A DNA stretch of 64,000 nucleotides from Pomacea canaliculata (Eukaryota > Mollusca > Gastropoda > Architaenioglossa > Ampullariidae): assembly GCF_003073045.1 (NCBI RefSeq), contig NC_037600.1, forward strand, positions 15,082,352-15,146,351, read 5' to 3'. The position numbers and the translations under genes are program-made. The notes under the pieces were generated by a model, which made no database searches, had not been told where the DNA came from, and saw only the letters and a list, made by a program, of their open reading frames with translations. Below, in pieces: positions 5,823 to 64,000 of this stretch (the first letter of the stretch is position 1; every line of letters starts with the position of its first letter).

Positions 5823-6469
5823 ATGGATCTATCTATTCCTCTTCGTGCATCAGGTTGCACATAAGGCCTCAACCAGAGTCCGCCACCGATGTCGATCGGC
5901 TGAAACCCGCTCTAGGTGACCCCATGTCCAGCCCTTTCCCTTCATCTCCCTTTCCACTGTTCTTCTCCAAGTTTCCTTTGGGCGGCCTCGTTTTCTTCGG
6001 CCGTCTGGAGTCCATCGTAGGGCGACTCTGGAGAGGTCTGCTGTCTGCTGGCTGAGCACATGTCCAATCCATCGCCAACGCCTTCGTTGAACCTGCGTGG
6101 TGATGGACTCGGTTTCACTTCTTCGGTGGAGTTCTTCGTTGGTGATGGTGTTTGGCCAAAAGATGTTAAGTATGCGCCTGAGGCATCTGTTTTGGAAGAC
6201 GTCAAGCTTGTTACTGATGGTTTTGGTCATCTTCCAAGATTCTGATCCGTAAAGGAGGGTGCTGATCACATTTGACTTGAAGATTCTCAGCTTGATCTTC
6301 TGGCTGATGTTTTTTGCCTTCCATGTGCTCCTGAGTGAGGCGAAGGCCTGGCTGGCTTTCGCCAGTCGGGCTCGAATCTCCACCTCCGCATCCCCGGTGT
6401 TTGACATTTTGGACCCAAGATAGGAGAAACTGTCAACTTCCTCAATCTCTTCTCCATTTAGTTTGCGAC
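5823..6469 (-). mobile_element. RTE-like LINE, 3' end copy (minus strand)
   Basis: Minus-strand frame from about 6466 down to 5850 encodes the C-terminal region of an RTE/CFDP2-type LINE: YLGSKMSNTGDAEVEIRARL, SESWKMT, CLRRILNIFW, RRRWRWIGHVL and GRPKETWRRTVE blocks. The element ends at 5823-5835 in short GATA-type repeats, the usual RTE 3' tail. It is a nearly exact reverse complement of 6985-7624, with four amino-acid differences noticed over about 205 residues, so both copies are young. The copy is 5'-truncated and stops abruptly where the plus-strand copy begins. Confidence 0.85.
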
Positions 6470-7624
6470 AGATTCTGGAGCAGAGCAACGAATGGAACAC
6501 ACCGCTGTACATCAATTTCATCGACCTGAAGAAGGCTTTTGACAGCATCCACCGCGAGTCCTTATGGAAGATCCTGAGGCATTACGGAGTCCCTGCAAAA
6601 CTTGTTCAGGTCATTGCAATGCTGTACAGCGATTTCAAATCCCAGGTTGTCTGTGACACGGAGCTCACAGACCCCTTCAACGTCAGTACCGGGGTGAAGC
6701 AGGGCTGCATTCTGTCGCCGTTCCTCTTCATCCTGGCCATGGACTGGATCATGAAGACTTCCACCGACAGTGAGAGGAGAGGGATCAGATGGACCATGAC
6801 TATGACAGCAACAACAACGCTGGAAGACTTGGACTTTGCTGATGACATTGCCCTGCTGTCACACCGCCACCAAGACATGCATGAAAAAACAAAGGCCTTC
6901 TCAGAAACAGCTGGAAACCTTGGCTTGAAGGTCAGCACAAAGAAAACGAAAAGTATGAGAGTGAACGCCAGAGTCCAAGACGGCATCAAACTAAATGGAG
7001 AAGAGATTGAGGAAGTTGACAGTTTCACCTATCTTGGGTCCAAAATGTCAAACACCGGGGATGCGGAGGTGGAGATTCGAGCCCGACTGGCGAAAGCCAG
7101 CCAGGCCTTCGCCTCACTCAGGAGCACATGGAAGGCAAAAAACATCAGCCAGAAGATCAAACTGAGAATCTTCAAGTCAAATGTGATCAGCACCCTCCTT
7201 TACGGATCAGAATCCTGGAAGATGACCAAAACCATCAGTAACAAGCTTGACGTCTTCCAAAACAGATGCCTCAGGCGCATACTTAACATCTTTTGGCCAA
7301 ATACCATCAGCAACGAAGAACTCCACCGAAGAACTGAAACCGAGTCCATCACCACGCAGGTTCAGCGAAGGCGTTGGCGATGGATTGGACATGTGCTCCG
7401 CCAGCAGACAGCAGACCTTTCCAGAGTCGCCCTACGATGGACTCCAGACGGCCGAAGAAAACGAGGCCGCCCAAAGGAAACTTGGAGAAGAACAGTGGAA
7501 AGGGAGATGAAAGGAAAGGGCTGGACATGGGGTCACCTAGAGCGGGTTTCAGCAGATCGACATCGGTGGCGGACTCTGGTTGAGGCCTTATGTGCAACCT
7601 GATGCACGAAGAGGAATAGATAGA
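6470..7624 (+). mobile_element. RTE-like LINE, 5'-truncated copy with RT catalytic motif (plus strand)
   Basis: A 379-codon open frame (6463-7602) starts inside the RT palm at INFIDLKKAFDS, continues through GVKQGCILSPFLF and the catalytic LDFADDIALL (FADD) motif, and ends with the same C-terminal blocks as the minus-strand neighbour plus the GATA-type tail at 7615-7627. The endonuclease and RT fingers are missing, so it cannot move on its own. Together with the copy at 5823-6469 it forms a head-to-head pair inserted into the duplicated FLOT1 sequence. About 180 bp of target, matching 19558-19735, is absent. Confidence 0.88.
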
Positions 7625-17014: not shown

Positions 17015-20000
17015 ATGGGTTTCGAGGTGTGTGGACCGAATGAAGTTATGGTTGTTTCTGGTAAGTCTCTTTATATTATTAATCATGTTTCGCTGTCGTG
17101 ACAACAATTTTTTCGCTCTAAAGCAAGCCCGGATATTTTGATCGTAGCAGGACGGATCTCTGAAGGATGCCTCGAAACTAGACTAGTAATTACCGTCCTA
17201 AATCTAACATACGCTTTTGATTGTCCCAGTAGTCAACCGAATGCTCACCGAGGAAATTAAGCACGAAAGTCTTCCGTGTTCCTACTGAAGGATTATAGAG
17301 GGCATATTTTAAAAGCAGAATATTAATTATTTGCGAACTTACAAGTCTTGCGCAAGACCCTGCGGGGAAAACAGCTTATTATGTAGACTGTAAAACCAGC
17401 ACGTCAGATACAAGCTGGAAATTAGGAATTGGACGTTTTGCAAAGGCGCATTCTAGTGTATAAAAGATTTCACTCTTGTTATATTGGATTTTACCATGTA
17501 ATATTTGTAATTTTTCATTTTCTTCCATGCCAGTTATGTTCCAGCTTGCACCTACATACTATTATAATTTGAATACTCATATCTACGTCCGACAGTGAAG
17601 CAGAAGATGCTAGAGACTGGGGTACTTATTGAGGAGGCAAGATAAAATTAGGTTACATCATCCTAATTTATGATGGAATCCAGCAACTGATGCTGGGCAG
17701 TAAAATATTTATAACTCAGATCTAATTTGTAAATAAAAATGAACTTACCACTGCAGTTTATATGAATTTATATAAATTGATATAAAATAGAGACATAAAT
17801 GCAGATGATTAATAAAGGAAGATGTTGAACTGAGAATAATCTGAAAAGAGAGCTCAGTCCATGGCTTTGGCTATGATCGACTGACTATTAGTTGTAGTAT
17901 GAGGGCATCTAGTTATTTTTGTAGTGTTAAACTGTCAGTTGGCTGGTTTGCTTGAGAAAATGCCTCCATCCTGTGGTGATTTTCAACAGTATAGGGGAAC
18001 ATTCATTGACCTGATTAAAAGCTGAACATCATGGCAGAACAAGGGTTTTCCCAAGCAGTAGGCAGTTACATTGCTTATCTAAAGCATGCACCAAGAACAA
18101 TTATAAATTAAAGATGTTTTTTGTATTTTTGTACACTTACAGAAATGCACACACGTCAACATACTCTTTTAAATTGGGGAATTTACACAGTAATGATGAA
18201 CATTGCATTTATTTTTTGCATCACATTTCAAGCTTGCAAATGGCATAATTTTAGTGATGATTTTTCTAATGCCTGTTTCATCTCTTGTGTTCTTTAGGTT
18301 GCTGCCTGGGAAGATCAAGATACCTCCCAGGTGGCCGCATCTTTGTTTGGCCTGGCATTCAGAAATTACAAAGGTGAGTGAATTTTCTAAGCATAACACA
18401 GAGCAGTTTTGATGATGATGACAAATGTTCTGTGACCCAAAGTAGTTGCTCACTAAGTGAAGGCTTAATGAGTTGAAAGTTGTGAAATCTGCAATGCTGA
18501 TTAATAGGCATGCGTTGACTTGACCAAACATGCAGGTTATAAAGTTTTTTTGTTTTTTTTTTTTTTTTGTGCAATTTCCTCACCTTTCTAGATCAGTTCA
18601 CAGAGAGATTCTTTTATGAGTTTTGTTAATTTTTGTCGACCACCGCTGTACTGAGGCCCAAATCAGAAACCAAGTTGAAGTTGAATCTAACCAATCTAGA
18701 GACATAAACATTACTTAATATTCCACAAGGGGAATTTAGAACCAAATGGTTAGAGATTATTGATTAAGATCTTTGGATTTTGCAAAATCTATTTTGCTTA
18801 AAGAGTATATGTAAGAAATTTTATGCTGAAAAAGCAACAACATGAGAGTAAGTTTGCAACATGGGAGCTGACCTTGCAAGTAAAACACTGCTGCTCATAT
18901 TTAAATGGATTTTTCTTCAAAAATTGTATGAGGTCAAATACTTTATGGCAACTCATCACTTACCAGAAGTACCAAGCATCAAACTTTTGTATGATTTGTT
19001 TTATTGTTTGATCAGTTTTAGATTGTTTCAGTTTTGAAAAGTAATAAAAGTAACAAAGAACAGTCCCTTCCAACCTACCTGGTCCTCATTATCTCACCTT
19101 CCCAGCACATATTTATACTTACATTCAAGTGTCAAGAAGGTTTCTCTGCATCTTTTTTTTTCTCTGTCTTCCCTGCATCTATCTGCTGTGCATTTGTGCA
19201 CCCGGTCTCTGCTAAGAATGTCCTTGAACACTTTGACCTTGTCAATTGAGAGTCCACAAGTATACACCAAACTTGGGGTGTCTATTTCCGTCACAGGTAT
19301 TGCGCAGGTAAGTTGCTATTGATGTATTGCACACACCATATTATGGATAGTCCAGCTTGCATGTTTGTTCGACAATGGCAGCTTATCCTTTTGGTTTGTA
19401 TTTTTTGTGCTATTTTTTTAAAATTATTTTGTTTTAGTTTTCCTCATTATTGAGTGTGCTTTTTATTTTGTTCAGTATTTTGGAAATAAGTATCTATAAA
19501 TGTAGTATTTGCAAGGAGTTTCAATCCATTATGTCTGCCTTCGTCAACTGCAGTGTGGATGGTCAGTTAAAAATAGTAACACTTTCCTCATACATATTAT
19601 TTATTTACATGCACATGAATTGGACGTGCACGCATGTCAAAATAATGAATAAATATCTGGTTGATTAAACCTGTTTTCTCGTAAGCCTGAACTTTAAGGG
19701 AATCAAAGGAGCAGGGACGTGATTTAATATTAGACATCAATTCATCATATTTACTGTAGGATTTTTTTTACTTTGTGGTTATTTTTGCAACATTCTCATA
19801 TTAGATGTTGGTAATATGATAATATTATTTTATTGTATCAAATAGTTCTAACTAAAAGAAGCCTGCAACATAGAGAAATCACAGTTTTCTTATCAGCATG
19901 CTTTTAAACATTAGGTAACTGGCTGGAGAAAAAAAAAGTTTTCTTTTTAATTCATCTGCAAGTGTCATTTTCCTGAATAAATGCCAAACAGACTAAGGCT

Positions 20001-23000
20001 GGATTGAATTTGCAGTTTGTTTTTACCCCTTAATTTTGTGTGGTTTGTGGAGACTTTCTTTTGTATCTAAAAATATATAGTCGTAGTAGTCGTGCAACTG
20101 TGGTTTGGTTGCAGGTTGTCGCTTAACACCATCACACTTACCATCGAAAGCAGCAACGTCTACACCCAGTTAGGCGTAGCCATCTCGGTCACTGGCATAG
20201 CACAGGTGAGATTCCACAGAAACAGTTGTGCAAGGGGGATACTGTTTTAAAAAAAAAAAATTTAAAGGAAAGCAGGGAGAAAAGAATTTTTGCATCCTCT
20301 TCTTGGGAAGGTCATTAAAGACATAGGTGCTTCTAAGATTATGAGTGTTTTTGTAGCCAATGTCCAAAAGCTTTTGATTCATATGAGCTTAATGAAAGAT
20401 TAGTTTGAGCAAGAGGATGCAGACATATCAGTGAGTAGACAAAAGTGAGAGAAGGTTGATTTTTGAGTATTTGGATGAAGTGATTTATCAGTAATTTTGT
20501 TTATTATTTTTTGTTTGTTTTTTTATTTTTTACACAACTAGGGAGTTGTAAGTTTGTGCATGTTATCAGTATACTGTCTCTGCATGCCATTTGAGTTGCT
20601 TGTAGATGTTTAATGTGGATGCACATGTGCATATACATCCACATGCACACACACCAGATACAAAATTTGTTGCGCTTTGTATTGTCTAACAGACTTTCAT
20701 ATAAGTGTTGCTAAACATATTTATATATTAAATATTATTTTGGTTCAGATATGTGAGTTTTTAAAGAATAATTTTGTCCTCCATGGCTTTACAATGTAAG
20801 CACATGATCATTTTTAGAAACATTCAGTATCTGGCAGTAACAAGAAGTTTTTAGTAAAAGTAAATCACTTTTGTGGCATAATTATACCCAAAATATTTTG
20901 TGAAAAGCCAGCATAAAAATTGTTTCTAAATGACTGGAAATAGTTCATTAATACAAGAAATTAATTCCTGATGCCTGAATAAATAACCCCTTTTGCAAGA
21001 TACATGCCTTTCAACATTAATATGCATAGAAGTCAGCAAGACCTGGATAAATCTGTGTTGTGTTGGAGCATTGATGTATTTACACATACAGCCAATGGGA
21101 TAGCTGGAAGGAAAGATGATGTATCAATGTTTCAATTTAACCTCAAGGATTTTGGTTGTTTCTGTGTACATATGAAAATCTCAATGTTTGAAGGTTTATC
21201 TTGTAAAGAAGAGGTTATTTGCATCAGATTTTGAGAATTAGTGTCTTGTCTGCTTGGGCTTAAAAAATGAGCTACCCAGTCATTTGAAAAATAGTTGTGC
21301 TGGGAGAGTCTTCAAATGAAAATTTTATAGGTACAGCAGATAATATCACAACTCAAACATAAGTTTATAGACAGTTAATAGAGATACTGATTACATTTTC
21401 AGCTGTGAAATTTCCAATGTGTGAAGAATTTTGCTGAAGCTAAGTATATATCTTTTATCAGCTATAGCTTTGTAGTAGTGCTAGTCCTGCCTGTTTTAAA
21501 TTGACTATTTGAATTTGAACACAGGTCAAGATTCAAGGTAGCAATGAAGAAATGCTGCAAGCAGCCTGTGAACTGTTCCTGGGCAAGAGTGAGAAAGAAA
21601 TCAAAGCTGTTGCCCAAGAGACACTGGAGGGTCATCAGCGTGCCATCATGGGCAACATGACTGTGGAGGTCAGAACTGAAAGATGCCCAAAGTGTCAAAG
21701 CACTTGGCTTATTTAGTTGCTTTTTTTTTTAATTTTCTGTGATGACACTCCTAAAAATGGTTACTTGATACAAGAACATTGCCTGATGTAGACTTTTATA
21801 TTATCAAGACCATTTTTCTCTTCTTTAAGAACACATTTTACAGAGCTGTTAGGTATTTCATTTTTTCATTGTTTTTGTCAGATAAAATAAAATATGAAAA
21901 GGTGAAGTTTTAAATTTTAATCCAATTTTTGCGTTAACAAAAGTATTATCATTCCTTGAAACTTGAAACACCTTGGAGGCCTTCATTGTCTAAGATATAT
22001 ACTATAGGGAATTAGACTGTCAATCATATAGAGAGTTCCACCACCAGTTGGTGCAAATTATCTTGTAGTAGTATGGTGGCTTGCGTGCTTGTCGATCCAC
22101 AGAGCTATGTCGGCAGGAGCCTTATGCTCCTGGCAGGTCTAGCCAAGCTGAAGAGGTCTGCCAGGGAGAGGCCAGACTAAAATGTTGCACCCTGGCTCTC
22201 CAGGTTGGGAGTTTTGCCTTGGGCTAACACCCCACTCGTCTAAAAACAAAATGCAAAGATCTTTAGACTCACACATAACCTTACTTTTCCTGTTGCAGGA
22301 GATCTATAAAGATAGGAAGAAGTTTTCCAAGGCTGTGTTTGAGGTGGCCTCCTCTGATCTCATCAACATGGGCATCTATGTTGTCAGCTACACTCTGAAG
22401 GACCTTCGTGATGAAGAAGTGAGTGCTTATGTGCTTTAAAAAAAACCCTCTAAGATAGTATCCAAACTGAGGTAATTTAAAATTATATTTTAAAAATTAT
22501 ATTTTTATATGGAATTCTAAATTTTGTTTGTTGTTTTTGTTTGTTTGTTTGTTTTCTTAGTCTCTGTTGTTTGGCAGCCTATTGTCTCTGTTGTGAGCTG
22601 CAGTTGCCTAAAGTCCCTCAATTAGAATGTAAAAAACATTAAAGTTGGGTTGTTTATTTTGTTTACTATAGGGCTATCTGAAGGCATTGGGAATGGCCCG
22701 TACAGCTCAAGTCAAACGAGATGCTCGCATTGGTGAAGCAGAGGCCAGAAGAGATGCTGGTATCAAGGTATCTATTGCGGATGTTAAATGCTGTGATTTA
22801 AGGTTTCTTTTCCAAATGACTTGGAAAAGCTGCAAGACCCAAGTGCTGTGGCAATCTTTAAAGCTCTTTTTGGAGGCAGATTTGCCACTCTGAACATGGA
22901 GGACTGCATTGTAGACACTCTTGATGGAAACTTGAAAGAGCTACTACTATCAGTAATTCAAGAGATTCTAGTAAGGCATGGAAAGAAGAATCAACCCTTG

Positions 23001-25781
23001 ATCACAAAAGATATCCTAGACCTCTTACCAGAGGAGGTCCTTGAAGAAAGAGGAAAAGCAACTCCAAAGCAGCTTCCAAGTAGAAAGTAGAGAACTGTGA
23101 CATCAGGAAGGCGATGAAGACAAGGAGAACCGAATCAATAATTGGTGCTAAACCAAAGAAGAGGGATTGACACAAGGTGACAACAAAAATGCCTACCAAC
23201 TACTGAAGACCTTTGATTATCAGCACAAAACTTCAGTCATCGAAGATCGCAATGACCTTTACAACTTCCAGCTGAGGATTGATGCCAACCCTCTCCAAAG
23301 TAACTAGTCCATAGCCAGAGAGCCTGTAGACCCATGAAGAGGTTGAGAGAGCTATAAATTATACGCAGTCTGAAGAGAGGAAGTCGCCAAGTGTTGACAG
23401 TGTCCCAGCTGAGCTGCACAAGCAGGATAAGGAAGAAATAACAAAGACCCTTATTGCTCTGCATCTGGTAATGCACAGAATGGATGCAGCCATTAGTCAT
23501 ACTCCTTCCAAAGAAAGGAAAAGGTAAACAGTGCCAAAACTACATACCCCTGGTAGGTCACCCAAGCAAAATCATGCTTAAAGTAATCGGAATCACATCC
23601 ACACTACTGCTGAAGAATTGCTAGCAGAAGAACAGGCTAACTTCAGAGTGGAAAGGGTCACAGCTGAACAAATCTCCAACTTTCAAATTCCACTTAAAAA
23701 AAATCATCTACAACACCAGCAAGATCTCTAAGACCAGTTTTCAGGATACCTTGGAGGTGTGTAAGGGGGATGTGGATGCCGAGGTTGCCAGAGGAAGAGT
23801 TGGATTGCAAATAGGAAGAAGTGGACTGGTAAGTCCACGAAGGCCTTGCTCGCTACCATTGAAGACAGGCCTAACTGGCAAGCCTTGTCAGCCACTGCAT
23901 CCAGTGACTTGTTCCCCTGATAACCAGTACTGTTTGTCAATGGATACCAATCAAGGGATGAATAAACAAATTAATCAATGAACTTATTTTTTTGTGACAT
24001 CATAAGGTAATCAGATTCATCAGTAGTTCAGAAATTGAATTATGCTGTTATTGAATTCCTACTTTCTTATTTTTAGGAAGCTCTTGCTGAGGAGAAAAGG
24101 ATGGAAGCTAGGTATGCTAATGACATAGAGATCGCTAAATCTCAGAGAGACTTTGAGTTGAAGAAGGCTGCCTATGATATGGAGGTGCAGACTACTAAAG
24201 CTCAGGCTGATTTGGCCTATGACCTACAAGTGAGTAAAGTAGACCTCTTCTTGAAAAGGAAAAGTGAAATTACTTGTGTATTTAAGATTGGGACATGAAC
24301 TGGTATTATAAAGACTTATGCCCATGCCATACGAAGAACTAACGCAAGTCATTGTGGATCACTAGAAAGTAATTGGAATTTATTACAATTCAAAAAAACA
24401 TTTGTGACATTGCCTAGCATAATGACATGGCAGAGAGTGAACAAAGCTTACATTTTGCACAAGGAAATCAAATGGTAAATGTTCCATTAAAGAATTAAAG
24501 TCAACACAGGGAAATTTAGAGATGAGTTTCGCCATCGTTTAGATGTTATGAAAGATCAAGTCCTCACCTGGTGGGCTGACATGCTGCTATGCTATGTTCA
24601 GGCAGCAAAGACAAAGCAGCGTATCCGTGAGGAGCAGATGCAGGTAACAGTCATTGAGCGTGGGCAGCAGATCCAGGTGCAGGAACAAGAGATTGTCCGT
24701 CGAGAGCGTGAGCTTGATGCTCAGGTTCGCAAACCTGCAGAAGCCGAAAAGTACCGCCTGGAGAAGCTGGCAGAAGCCAACAGAACGCGAGTCATCTTGG
24801 AGGCCGAGGCTGAAGCTGAAGCCATCCAGGTCAGCATTTCATGTTTTCATTTCTCAAGTGAGGACACAAATTTAGAATTTATTTTAAAAAACTTACAGAT
24901 TTCTGAGACCAGCAGCTATTTTTGGTTTTTTTGCTGTGTTCTTGCAGGTCAAGGGTGAAGCTGAAGCATTTGCTATTGAAGCAAAGGCACGTGCTGAAGC
25001 TGAGCAGATGGCCAAGAAAGCTGATGCCTGGAAAGATTACCAGGATGCTGCTATGGTGGACATGGTTCTTGAAACACTGCCAAAGGTTAAAATTAAAAGA
25101 ACTTTAGAAACTTTCATTCACCTCAGACAAAAGGCTCATGGATGCTTTAAGATTAAATGCTGTATACAGACTCTGGTAATCTTGCACCAACACTCTGGTA
25201 ATCTTGCAGTGAAAAAAATGTCTTTTGTTCATCAGATTGCTGCTGAGATTGCGCAGCCTCTGGCACAGGCGAAGAAAGTCACCATGGTTTCCAGTGGCAA
25301 GGGAGAGGTGGGTGCCACTAAACTCACCAGTGAGGTCATGCTCATCATGGAGAAACTGCCTCTCATGGTGGAGAACCTTACAGGCATCAACATCTCTAAG
25401 GTGAGTTCTTGCATAAAATTAACTCTTGATACGATTAGGCAGACTTCTTCAATTCAATTCATCATGAAAAGAAAGTTTTTGAGATAGAGTGTCTGTGTTT
25501 TAGTAAAGGTAAAAGTACAGCTTTAGTGTCATTATTCTAACAAAATTAATCGCTCAACAAAAGTAAATAGTCTACATTTTTCTGTTTCGTAACCAGCACA
25601 TTGAAGTTTGACAAGTTGCATGTTGGTAAATAGGTGTTTTTTGTGAAATACTCGTGCTTAGATATCTTTCTATACGCCTTCATGAAAATGTCTTTTTGTA
25701 TACAATTTTTTCCCCTTTTTAGTTTATTTGGTGAAAAATATTTGTTTGTTACAGTCCATGAAAATGAGTCATCGTAAGTAA
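17015..25781 (+). CDS. FLOT1: FLOT1, flotillin-1 (complete)
   Basis: Exons: 17015-17060, 18298-18373, then either 19217-19307 (3A) or 20115-20205 (3B), 21525-21668, 22299-22418, 22672-22767, 24077-24229, 24602-24829, 24948-25085, 25236-25400 and 25755-25781. With one third exon the CDS is 1,284 nt, 427 residues, the length of human FLOT1, and all phases agree. The SPFH/PHB domain spans about residues 1-190 ([11 protein letters not shown] at the start, [32 protein letters not shown]). The flotillin coiled coil follows, rich in EA/AE repeats ([45 protein letters not shown]), with the C-terminal [17 protein letters not shown] block. Flotillins form hetero-oligomers on the cytosolic face of membrane microdomains. 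The vertebrate palmitoylated Cys34 position is Gly here, with a Cys-Cys pair at residues 17-18 instead. The LINE insertion in the intron before exon 24077 leaves the exons intact. Confidence 0.95.
19217..19307 (+). other. FLOT1: FLOT1 alternative exon 3A
   Basis: 91 nt between a CTAAG acceptor, preceded by a long T-rich tract, and a GCGCAG/GTAAGT donor. It encodes [20 protein letters not shown] and then [10 protein letters not shown] after the split Arg codon from exon 2. It occupies the position of the single vertebrate exon segment RISLNTLTL...GIAQ. Confidence 0.88.
20115..20205 (+). other. FLOT1: FLOT1 alternative exon 3B
   Basis: 91 nt between a TTGCAG acceptor and a GCACAG/GTGAGA donor. 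It encodes [20 protein letters not shown] and then [10 protein letters not shown] in the same phase as exon 3A. It matches 3A at 23 of 30 residues, but only 5 of 30 codons are identical. Confidence 0.9.
22050..22250 (+). repeat. Possible dispersed repeat in FLOT1 intron
   Basis: A GC-richer patch (ATGGTGGCTTGCGTGC through GGGCTAACACCCCACTCG) unlike the flanking AT-rich intron. Its wording resembles 5' leaders of RTE-type LINEs, by memory only. There is no second copy in the window. Confidence 0.3.
22810..23730 (+). mobile_element. RTE/CFDP2-like LINE fragment in FLOT1 intron
   Basis: Translation in shifting plus-strand frames shows the linker and early RT of an RTE/CFDP2-type [24 protein letters not shown], then the segment before RT (about 23100-23240), SVDSVPAEL-type sequence near 23395, and [19 protein letters not shown]-type sequence near 23625-23680. 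It is truncated at both ends and carries several breaks. The 89-codon frame at 22821-23090 belongs to this element, not to FLOT1. Confidence 0.75.
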
Positions 25782-33181: not shown

Positions 33182-36100
33182 GTTTGCTTGTATAGCACCC
33201 TCATTTTAAAAAAAGTGCATTGTTTGTTTGTGACTTGGTGATGGTGAGAGAGTGGAATACAATATGTCATTTAAAACAATAGTGTTCTGAAATCCTTATG
33301 ATAACATCCCTAGTTTTGATTTTATGTCTTCATCCTTTGCACAGATTTTCCCACTGGTCTTCATATACATCCAGCTTAATTCATTTACAGCACTTTTTGT
33401 AGTTAACTGATCTACCATATATAAAGCTTGTGTAATTTACGAGCTTGTGCTTTTATTTTAATTTTACTTTTTCTTTGTTCCATGCCTACTCTAGCACCAG
33501 TAGATTTGAGGATCCAAGATATCAAGGCTTCCTTCTTGTTTAAGCTGCAAGTTGTTAGAGCTATATCAATACATTTAAAGACATCGTACTTGAATTTGAG
33601 CAAGTGTGAACAAAACATTTTTTTGGATGTTCACAAATTTATAGAAATTATTATAGTAATGCACTTGGGCATTTTAGTTACTGATATCTGTCATAATTTT
33701 TGTTATCTTTATTTTAGCTGCAGAACTACTAATTGATGATGATGGCATTCTTCAAGATGACATCAATGTTTTCAAGCATGTGGCTGGGACAGGGGGTCAG
33801 GGGACAGACTCTGGCTTTGGAGGAGATAAACAGTCAAGCACATCAACAATTCAGCATCTTCAGGCCAGCTTTGATGAGGATCTTGCTCCCATTGGCGATG
33901 AGAGCATCAACATCAGTGACTTTGAGGCATCCAGAGATGACCTCGATAGTATTGGCGGTGACCTTGATGGTCATCGAGAAGGAAAATCCCGATTCTATCA
34001 TAAGTCAAAAAACTTGAGTCTGGAGGTTGATACACCAGGAAGCACTTTAGAGCATCCTCCGGATTTCAAACGGGAAGTATTATCCCAACAGAAGCTGTGG
34101 GGGAAAAACGAGAACAGGAGCGAAGATAAGAACCTCTTCACAGATGACTACTATCAGCAGCTGAGAGAGCTTGGTGTATTGGTGGAAGGTGCTGACTTCT
34201 CCAAAGATGAGTCCTTCAATGACGAGTCAGAGATGCTTGAGGGTCAAATGTCACAAGAACCTGGTGACTATGATGATCACAGGGATCTGATTGGTGAATA
34301 CCTGCAGGAACAATATGACAGGGAACTTGCAGAACAAGAAGAAACAGAGTCACATAGCAGAGTGAGGAGCTATGAGATGAGTGAGGCGCAGGTCGGCCGA
34401 CATTCACGAGCTAGCTCTGCACCTACGATCAGTGGACGTTCTTTTCCAGAAATCTCACCTGAAGATGCTGGCATAATTCTGTCTGAGTCACAACAAACAG
34501 AAAATGAGGATGAGATTTTCTTGATCAACAACCAGTTATTACCAGCATCAAAGCTGAAGGCTCAAAAATTGCCTGTCACACCATCAACACAAGGCAGTCG
34601 TCCTGGAAGTCGGACTGGCAGTCGTCCTGGAAGTCGGACTGGCAGTCGTCCTAGCAGTCGTCTCAGTACTGTGGGAAGTCGATCAAATACACCTCAAAGT
34701 ATTGATAGTCGAGGAGGAGGTGATAGTCTAAGGCAGACTTTTCAAAATCACTTACAGCAACCAAGTTCTAGGCAAATTCATTCTCCAGATACTTGTCACC
34801 ATGAGATGCCATTCAGTCATGAAGAACAGGTAGTGTCTCGGTCCGAAACAAATACCCCGCACAGGAGACGCACAGATTCTATGACATCAGAAAATATGTC
34901 TGCAGCAAGTCCTTCCAAATCTACAATTTCTAAAGCTCGATCACAGGAAAGCTTCTTTGAACTGGATAGACAGCAAGCAGTATCTGCAGAGAAAGGTCAC
35001 AAACGACTGCTGCCTACTCCTAGTATTTCTGATGTAAATGAGTCATTTAAGATCAGAAGCAAAAGCAAAAGCGTCAGCAACATCTCTCAGCGTTCTGGCC
35101 CAGTTAAGCCCACCCATATGTCCATTTCTGAAATTGACCGCATGGCAACAGAAGAAGGAGGCATCAGCATTGGTGAACAATCCGACGAGATGTTAAAGAA
35201 GCTGGAAGGTGAGTTGAGCACTCAGCTGAAGCAGGAGTCAGTGCGCCGTAAACAGGCCACAGAACTTGTACAGCAGCTGCAGAAAGAATATGACATGCTT
35301 CTGTCAAAATATGCCCTGGCAGAACTCACCATTGACCAGATGCGACTAGGTGCCCGCATCACACTGCATGCCAATTCACCTACCCCAATCTCCACACATG
35401 CAGGAATGGTCTCGTCTGGCACAGGTGCCCATAAAGGCCAGATTATGCAACTGGCTCCACCACCAGTCCAAAAGGCTGTTGTTGATCACTTCAGCCCTAC
35501 CCCAGGTAAGAAGACTTGATATGTTTAAATCTTATTTTAGAAGCTATACTGTAGCAACAGTTCCATTACATATCTTAATTCCTTATTATTAGTTTAAATT
35601 ATAAGAGAAAGAATGCAATGACAGAGAAATTTTAGAAGTTTATTGTTAAATGCAGATGATTAATGGGATTCTAATTCTACATAAAAAATGTATTGAAAAT
35701 ATGGAATTGTTTATCTTACATTACTTGCTATCGAAAAATAACAAGTCTGTTACATCTTTCAATATATTAAGGAAACATGTATTTACAATGCATGAGAGTG
35801 ACAATTGCAGTAAGATTAGATATGCCTAATAGTCAGCATAGTCAACATAGTAGTCATAGTCAAGTGACAATTGCAGTAAGATTAGATATGCCTAATAGTC
35901 AGCATAGTCAACATAGTAGTCATAGTCAAAAGATTGATGCTTAGAATGTGTCATACTCATGTTGTTTCAAGGACACAGATTTTATTTCTTTTAATTTCTT
36001 TACATTTTTTGTTTGTTTCTTCATATCATAGCTTTATTGATATATTTGAACAAACAGATCACCTTTGATAATTTAATGATTTATTTCATTGGTTTTCTTC

Positions 36101-62129: not shown

Positions 62130-62690
62130 AGGAAGCAGAGATGACTGGCTTAAAGATCAACAGAAAAAAAAAGACCGAAATGATGAGAATCAACAACTAG
62201 CAGGAACTCCCAATCCAACTTCAAGGAGACAGCATCCTAGAAACAGACCGCTTTACGTATCTGGAGAGCATTGTCAACAAGGATGGTGGAACGGATGATA
62301 AAATCAAAAGCCGCATCAACAAGGCCAGGCATGCTTTCAACAGCCTATGCTCCATCTGGAACTTCCAAGTATTATCCTTCAGCAGTAAGACCCGCATCTT
62401 CAACACCCATGTGAAGGCAGTCCTACTGTATGGTTCTGAAACCTGGAGAGTGACAAACACCATCAACAACAAGCTCCAGACCTTTACCAACCGATGCCTA
62501 CGCCATGTTCTGGGAATAAGATGGCCTGTAAAGGTCTCCAACAGCTGCCTGTGGAAAAAAACCAACCAGAATGCCACTAGCCAAGACATCAAAAAGCGCA
62601 AATGGGGCTGTATAGGACACACCCTGCGCAAACCAGCTGACACCATGGCTAGGCAGGCACTACCTTCACTCTCCATTTCTGTGACTACAG
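62130..62690 (+). mobile_element. RTE/CFDP2-like LINE 3' region
   Basis: Plus-strand blocks follow the usual order after the RT catalytic site: TGLKINRKKT-EMMRIN, ETDRFTYLESIVNKDGGTDD, KSRINKARHAFNSLCSIW, LLYGSETWRVTNT, FTNRCLRHVLGIRWP, RKWGCIGHTLRKPADT and ARQAL. Two or more frame breaks occur near 62200-62300, so it is dead. It differs from the 5823-7624 LINE in wording and is a separate family or lineage of the same clade. Confidence 0.82.
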
Positions 62691-62699
62691 CTGAAGTCA

Positions 62700-64000
62700 A
62701 ACGTCTCCATTGTTCATCGTGTCTACAGCTAAACAGTACATTTCAGTGTCAGTGAGTCATATTTCGTCTGTGTGAATTCTTTTATTGCCAGACTACTTCC
62801 TTAAAAATCTGAGTAAAGTCTGGAATCAATTTTCATTATATCCACCATACCTATTGCACATTCAACCCACCCCCATTTTTTTTAGGTTTGTATGGTTGGA
62901 ATTAAGTTAAATTTTCCCATGTACTTGAATAGAGTCAAGTGTGTGATTTAATCGATTTTAGATTGTTGACAAAGCGACTAATGATGGCATCGACCGGTGA
63001 CCAACAATACACGGGGGGGCGGACAGCCTTGTCTCACTAACTAAAAGGCGAACCCCCAGTGCTCCTAAGTTTTATTGGTTAAGATAAAGACATAGTTTGT
63101 GGTAGTCGGTCCGATACCCATATGAAGCAGTGTACTCCATCCAAACGACTTTCAGATCACAGGACTATTTTTACCTGGTAACAGTACAAGGGAGCAAACT
63201 TTGGATTTCGCGCTAAACGGTGGCGGTGGCGGTGGCGTCCCTTAGTCTTCTTTGCCACTTGTCGGCTGCTAGCGGGGTGGGGAACCCTTCATTTACATGT
63301 ATATTTTTTATTAGCGTTACCCTGAAAGGCTAGCTCAGATCCGAACTTAAAGTAAACAGCAATGAATCATTTATCCTTCCCAAAGCAATAAAATAAATTG
63401 ATTATACAGAATAAATGCAACCCTGTCAAAATGTCTATATGCATCTAAACATGTGTCTGTGTGTGCGAAGTTTAACTTAGCATCCTGTCAGAAAAACCAT
63501 TCAATTCTTAAAACTCATGTTATTCAAATTGCATGAAGAAGTGTGTTTGTGCTTCATTACCCTTTAACCTCCGATCACCACTGTAGTTAATTTGGAATGG
63601 AGAGATCGTTTTGTCAGTTTGTCTGTCCCACGTACACACACACACAAACGTTGTTTACTCTTCAGAAGATGACCAGAACCAAGGTGAGACGTCAGACAGC
63701 TCACCATCCTTGAAGCATTTCGTCAGCAGGAAACTAAGGTCGCTCCTTGGAAACTATGACCAGTTTCCAGTGTCTACAAATGCTCTTCGTGTCTTTTTAA
63801 GGCAGTTTCTCGGTGTCTATGTGTGATCAATTTCTCGTTTTCTTTTTATTTTTTCCTTCTTATGATAAGCATTTTAGAAAATCCTGTCATTCCTCCCTCT
63901 CTCTCTCAAATATAGTTATTAACCGTCAAACACTATTATTTCAATCAATTTTATCTCATTATCCCACGGACCATATACAGTCTTATGTAAGGTCTGTGGC
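62700..64000. other. Unassigned right edge
   Basis: No coding exon or repeat was recognised. Notable only for a short GGTGGC run near 63221-63238 and a CACACA patch near 63640. Short frames here lack family features. Confidence 0.4.

Follow-up and report, generated by a model that had tools for sequence, protein, structure and literature searches.

Tandem-duplicated, apparently mutually exclusive versions of exon 3 in the flotillin-1 gene of Pomacea canaliculata, with counterparts in other molluscs

Tandem duplicated exons, of which one enters each message, have been described in Ca-alpha1T, Cacophony, NALCN and FYN, where the adjacent homologous exons are ancient, preserve the frame and differ by conservative substitutions (PMC9741552). 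Likewise, mutually exclusive exon clusters common to animals are found in muscle myosin heavy chain, a motor protein (PMC3912159), and a duplicated, alternatively spliced mollusc exon has been reported in a different gene, the oyster alternative oxidase (PMC5589949). Exons 4a and 4b of OGDH form a further duplicated pair, with an extended AG-free zone and a long pyrimidine tract at one acceptor (PMC7969005). Here, we describe such a pair in a gene of another class than those of PMC9741552, flotillin-1, whose product is a scaffold of membrane cages, within 64,000 nucleotides of Pomacea canaliculata DNA (assembly GCF_003073045.1, contig NC_037600.1, positions 15,082,352 to 15,146,351), hereafter the 64-kb window. 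With a probability of about 0.9, two 91-nt segments of this gene, exons 3A and 3B, are tandem-duplicated versions of exon 3 that are used mutually exclusively, are old and are each held by selection.

Flotillin-1 and flotillin-2 assemble in 22 pairs into a cage of known structure (PMC11260169), and what makes such cages specific is, in our judgement, poorly understood. Alternative splicing of flotillin genes is also on record in mammals, for human FLOT2 (PMC9205547) and cattle FLOT1 (PMC10940349), but as exon skipping, and the available parts of both papers mention no duplicated pair. Editing of human FLOT1 upset its splicing (PMC5453576), and flotillin-2 has been reported in a Pomacea proteome (PMC8533556). 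The string "flot" occurs 0 times in the main text of the study of human tandem-exon events (PMC9741552). An earlier note on this DNA, made from the sequence alone, knew of no described flotillin-1 switch exon; this agrees with the matches listed from open-licence papers, where no title or abstract opening describes a flotillin/reggie switch exon, but not with the databases, where such isoforms are already deposited as models. Mutually exclusive exons are well known and no new principle is involved; the interest of the case is raised by the spread of the variants, by five versions in one abalone and by a second switch at exon 6.

The window contains a complete flotillin-1 gene on the + strand (17015-25781) with twelve exons, of which eleven would be used at a time (Table 1), and the coding sequence comprises 1284 nt (427 residues and the stop) with either copy of exon 3. 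The protein carries the Band 7/SPFH (PF01145) and flotillin C-terminal (PF15975) domains, both above the Pfam cut-off, and scores 575 bits against solved flotillin-1 chains vs 368 bits against flotillin-2, which identifies the predicted product as flotillin-1 and not flotillin-2. Over its 427 residues the 3B isoform is identical to P0001 (P. canaliculata "flotillin-1-like isoform X1"), a cluster of three member sequences; a model of exactly this form is therefore already deposited.

Exons 3A and 3B are both 91 nt long, have the same entry and exit phase and lie between exons 2 and 4. When re-derived from the sequence, the exon coordinates, splice sites and phases given by the earlier note, together with its 23 identical residues out of 30 and five identical codons, were correct to the base. 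Its frame argument was borne out by the gene model as well: one copy or the other gives 427 residues; with both, the fourth codon of 3B is read as TAA and the protein ends after 74 residues; with neither, an out-of-frame stop in exon 4 follows after 85. Since 'poison' splicing is a known use of early stops, and both of the latter forms give such stops, double inclusion or skipping could alternatively act as a regulated off-switch through message decay, the two exons being alternative but not exclusive. This is highly improbable, because an off-switch needs no two conserved, divergent coding versions, and because the models in which the copies are joined look like annotation errors: the Plakobranchus model has a whole 3A, 13 extra residues and then 3B, and the Nucella model has 3A followed by only the end of a 3B-like exon. 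Both show the order of the window, which suggests that the pair is also present in the Plakobranchus and Nucella genomes. Models from Batillaria, Plakobranchus and Nucella (P0002, P0007, P0009) string alternative exons into one protein, apparently annotation errors arising from pairs of this kind.

Mutually exclusive use is further supported by the pattern of divergence between the copies. At the nucleotide level 55 of 90 positions are identical, distributed as 20, 29 and 6 of 30 over the first, second and third codon positions, and the 35 differing bases correspond to some 21.8 synonymous vs 13.2 non-synonymous changes (counting script), with pS 0.97 and dN 0.23; synonymous sites are thus, on this count, saturated. 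Among the 23 identical residues the same codon is used at five, no excess over the 8.2 +/- 2.2 that would be expected if codons were drawn independently. When 35 random changes were introduced into 3A (n=5000), a mean of 10.2 and a maximum of 18 residues stayed identical, none of the 5000 runs kept 23 of 30, and a stop codon arose in 65%. A tblastn search of the window with 3A returned, besides itself, only 3B (E 9e-12; next best 0.47), and at the DNA level the 3A exon was found once in the 440-Mb, 24-contig assembly. Chance resemblance or decay is ruled out by the simulation, by tblastn and by the saturated synonymous sites. By tblastn there was also no third copy of exon 3 within the 64 kb and, among the other exons covered (1, 2 and 4-10), no repeat in the window at E 0.05 or better.

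Saturated synonymous sites combined with a kept protein indicate that both copies have long been maintained as protein, and both versions are, on this evidence, under purifying selection. Moreover, each copy is nearest its own type in other gastropods: 3A shares 27 of 30 residues with 3A of Haliotis, Bradybaena, Lymnaea and Biomphalaria each, vs 23 with its own 3B, and 3B shares 27-28 of 30 with 3B of Bradybaena, Aplysia and Haliotis (version 2). The claim in the earlier note that both copies are old and constrained is thereby upheld. The flanking introns retain a best likeness of 50 nt at 72% (E 0.007), and this scant resemblance fits an old duplication.

A full-length protein search, from which the best 120 of 5946 clusters were taken and in which the absence of a variant from a species is weak evidence, gave flotillin-1 proteins from a wide range of animals; 199 proteins were retrieved in all, and exon 3 was surveyed in the 18 species with at least two listed proteins. 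Between two and five versions of exon 3 occur among apparent isoforms of a single gene in eight of these species, namely Haliotis rufescens (five), H. cracherodii, Sinanodonta woodiana, Mytilus californianus and Lingula anatina (three each), and Bradybaena similaris, Biomphalaria glabrata and Mytilus trossulus (two each), that is, in abalones, pulmonates, a freshwater mussel, marine mussels and a brachiopod. The isoform differences fall on residues 42-71, which correspond to exon 3. The pair is therefore not absent from all relatives, a case that the earlier note had raised against it. The note's reading of the exons as mutually exclusive has good support from the frame logic, from the conservation of the protein in the face of saturated synonymous sites and from these models in molluscs and Lingula.

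Separate use of the versions in relatives is supported by isoform models and by three short contigs, beside the two fused models. In this regard, P0135, on a 1611-bp contig, has 381 residues that begin within a 3A-type exon and continue through exon 4 and beyond, while P0030 (longest contig 2422 bp) and P0032 (1644 bp) are full or nearly full proteins of 3B type. The same exons span >5 kb in the window, and in view of their shortness these contigs most likely represent spliced RNA.

Several points weigh against this reading. The isoforms of relatives are database gene models, judged from their proteins and not from genomic exon order or splice sites, and "one gene" was deduced from isoform names, from a shared locus tag (Sinanodonta) or from equally long contigs; the Bradybaena proteins are numbered consecutively on a single contig, and P0116, the 3A protein of Biomphalaria, is a record without contig. 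Ten of the 18 species, four oysters among them, have no exon-3 switch among their listed proteins: a single exon 3 appears in the six listed Crassostrea virginica proteins and in C. angulata, Ostrea and Saccostrea, as in the listed proteins of Littorina, Mytilus coruscus, Centruroides and Bugula (one of the two Bugula proteins is unreadable at exon 3). The pairs from Babylonia and Acanthaster were rejected as splice variants, their proteins lying on two contigs and differing throughout. No excess of RNA pairing was detected among the three introns, as the observed duplex energy was attained in 8/20, 4/7 and 19/20 of the shuffles. Moreover, we infer the use of 3A in P. canaliculata from constraint and from relatives, and P0001, the only protein of this species among the matches listed, is the 3B form. 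Together with the unusual 3A acceptor (AAG, with 46 nt separating the pyrimidine stretch from the exon), this would suit a 3A that is an unused relic or pseudo-exon of the duplication, with only 3B spliced; such a relic is very unlikely, as 3A retains its frame, its splice sites and its likeness to abalone and pulmonate 3A despite saturated synonymous sites, an outcome that the simulation did not reach, and 3A-type exons stand in listed proteins of Haliotis, Bradybaena, Biomphalaria and Lymnaea.

With regard to age, two further points weigh against the main reading. For the bivalve and chiton exons the lead of 3A type over 3B type amounts to only one or two residues (23 v 21 in Sinanodonta, 22 v 20 in Mercenaria, 23 v 22 in Liolophura), and approximately unbiased (AU) tests do not reject single clades of gastropods (p 0.21), of the Pomacea pair (0.26) or of caenogastropods (0.29), which we attribute to thirty columns being too few. 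Some versions of Haliotis (v3-v5 89/0; v4+v5 100/89) and Mytilus also group by lineage in the exon-3 tree, so that the copies might have arisen lineage by lineage and become alike through convergence or gene conversion, the pair being a more local event. We regard this as unlikely: synonymous sites are saturated, no clear likeness is left in the introns, the window 3A resembles abalone 3A more than it does its 3B neighbour, and the tree unites the 3A types of gastropods, four bivalves, a chiton and octopus (15 rows, 91/78; strict 13-row set 74/62). This tree comprised 54 hand-picked peptides over 30 columns, with 6 of 49 branches starred, and that of exon 6 comprised 36 hand-picked peptides over 32 columns, with 2 of 33 starred; in neither were bootstraps settled. 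Each variant of a species was mostly represented by a single row, and human segments were added; near-duplicates were omitted, as were unnamed contigs, apart from one mytilid.

Thus 3A-type and 3B-type exons are, by residue likeness, recognisable across gastropods, and 3A-type exons are probably present in bivalves and a chiton. An origin of the exon 3 pair before the gastropods is likely, and one before the molluscs possible to probable. The Lingula versions fall outside the 3A group and may be separate in origin.

As to how one exon might be chosen, two kinds of constraint were rejected: the 807-nt intron between 3A and 3B is too long for steric hindrance, and on inspection the donors are ordinary U2-type GT, which excludes U2/U12 incompatibility. 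The acceptor of 3A is set apart by an AG-free zone of 75 nt, compared with 23-43 nt at the acceptors of exons 2, 3B and 4-11, and by a run with 19 pyrimidines in 20 positions that ends 46 nt upstream of the exon. Regulated exons, OGDH 4a/4b among them, are described as having extended AG-free zones together with long pyrimidine tracts (PMC7969005), and this parallel suggests control by pyrimidine binding at 3A; in OGDH, however, the zone lies in the short intron between the pair and exclusion works through distant branch points, whereas in the snail it lies upstream of 3A.

In the mechanism that we propose, one copy of the duplicated exon 3 would be retained in each mature message and the other removed within an intron, most likely through pyrimidine-tract-binding splicing factors acting on the AG-free region before 3A. 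As 91 nt cannot be divided into whole codons, the reading frame would enforce the either-or choice even with leaky splicing: messages with both copies or neither, whose stops after 74 and 85 codons lie far upstream of several exon junctions, would be expected to enter nonsense-mediated decay, with the decay of wrong-frame messages as a back-up. The choice would then swap a 30-residue hairpin near the membrane-facing rim of the cage and leave the rest of the protein unchanged.

Exon 3 aligns with residues 41-70 of human flotillin-1, an orthologue (PDB 9bq2_B, 9l3g_A; 65% identity in the fold match) that ranks first in the fold search (E 1.5e-38); the match superposes poorly (rmsd 84 A over long helices), and only local strand positions were used. 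In the AlphaFold model of the 3B isoform (P0001; mean pLDDT 74.9, pTM 0.39), residues 41-70 have pLDDT 82-85 and exon 3 takes in the last part of a strand at 37-43, the whole of another at 47-57, a turn and the greater part of a strand at 63-74. SPFH1 spans residues 1-43 and SPFH2 residues 43-160, and SPFH1 alone is inserted in the leaflet (PMC11775717); exon 3 is thus, in the model, a beta-hairpin at the SPFH1/SPFH2 border and mostly within SPFH2. The seven differences between 3A and 3B (residues 42, 47, 50, 54, 55, 59, 63) lie on or beside this one hairpin, 54 and 55 towards the end of its first strand, 59 in the turn and 63 where the second strand begins.

The earlier note had proposed that the isoforms differ in membrane or oligomer contacts. 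Direct membrane contact is less likely, because only SPFH1 enters the leaflet and exon 3 is mostly SPFH2; oligomer contacts are the likelier part of the proposal, and we infer from the model that the isoforms differ in contacts between neighbouring subunits, or in tilt or stiffness of the rim, more than in lipid insertion. In human flotillin-1, C34 is palmitoylated and K51 is a SUMO site (PMC11775717); the former position is G in the window protein, and the latter, within the exon 3 segment, is Glu in both snail versions.

A second variable segment was found in exon 6 (residues 160-191), which also varies in eight of the 18 species among single-gene isoforms (both Haliotis, Bradybaena, Biomphalaria, Littorina and three Mytilus), with 6A/6B protein pairs P0003/P0005, P0011/P0020, P0008/P0014, P0021/P0025 and P0040/P0065. 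Fifteen 6B exons, including those of bivalves and octopus, form one group in the exon-6 tree (91/94, not starred), and the Batillaria model joins 6B and 6A. No 6B copy was detected in the window, where 6B queries were significant by tblastn only at 22672-22767; with the 6A type alone, Pomacea appears to have lost 6B. Exon 6 begins at the hinge with the equivalent of human Y160, a tyrosine that is proposed to bend the SPFH rim when phosphorylated (PMC11260169). At the same exon, P0123 of Sinanodonta woodiana is missing the 32 residues with the frame kept.

Furthermore, the Lingula anatina isoforms P0056, P0057, P0060, P0061, P0064 and P0068 combine two versions of exon 2 (residues 16-41) with three of exon 3, and the exon-2 choice turns WPG into WPC at the position of the human palmitoylated C34. 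It is close to an even question, tilted slightly to the doubtful side, whether mollusc flotillin-1 (Lingula having its own set) constitutes an ancient combinatorial switch, in which exon 3 (two to five versions), exon 6 (two) and, in Lingula, exon 2 with its membrane patch around the palmitoylation site would be chosen independently, 22 copies per cage would yield tunable cages and the exon-3 pair would predate living molluscs. Long-kept versions of the rim hairpin and the hinge would offer a natural experiment on cage contacts that differ between cells, and a set of ready-made variants.

Table 1. Features of the flotillin-1 gene, with positions counted from the first base of the 64-kb window.
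Feature	Position	Strand	Remarks
Exon 1	17015..17060	+	Start codon at 17015; gene model; single copy by tblastn
Exon 2	18298..18373	+	Donor AAG|gtgagt; single in window
AG-free zone, 75 nt, ahead of the 3A acceptor AG	19140..19214	+	Pyrimidines at 19 of 20 positions in 19151-19170; possible regulatory region or site of a distant branch point
Exon 3A	19217..19307	+	Acceptor ctaag|A, donor CAG|gtaagt; 91 nt
Intron 3A-3B	19308..20114	+	807 nt; ordinary GT-AG ends
Exon 3B	20115..20205	+	Acceptor tgcag|G, donor CAG|gtgaga; 91 nt
Exon 4	21525..21668	+	Gene model
Exon 5	22299..22418	+	Gene model; single copy by tblastn
Exon 6	22672..22767	+	6A type; start of long helix, hinge tyrosine; single in window
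Exon 7	24077..24229	+	Gene model; single copy by tblastn
Exon 8	24602..24829	+	Gene model; single copy by tblastn
Exon 9	24948..25085	+	Gene model; single copy by tblastn
Exon 10	25236..25400	+	Gene model; single copy by tblastn
Exon 11	25755..25781	+	Last codons (8) and stop; model agrees with P0001 to the final residue

Among the relatives, the two Babylonia areolata proteins P0004 and P0006 are both flotillin-1-like, lie on two contigs and differ at 43 positions, which suggests a gene duplication. Oyster isoforms (P0055/P0074/P0084 and P0053/P0081) carry 5 or 9 additional residues where exons 5 and 6 meet, and none of them varies in exon 3. Elsewhere in the window, fragments matching RVT_1 and/or DUF6451 were observed at 5853-7599 and 62201-62752, two of them near 6-7 kb on opposite strands. 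Downstream of flotillin-1, a 613-codon open stretch at 33678-35516 with no Pfam match is probably part of the next gene.

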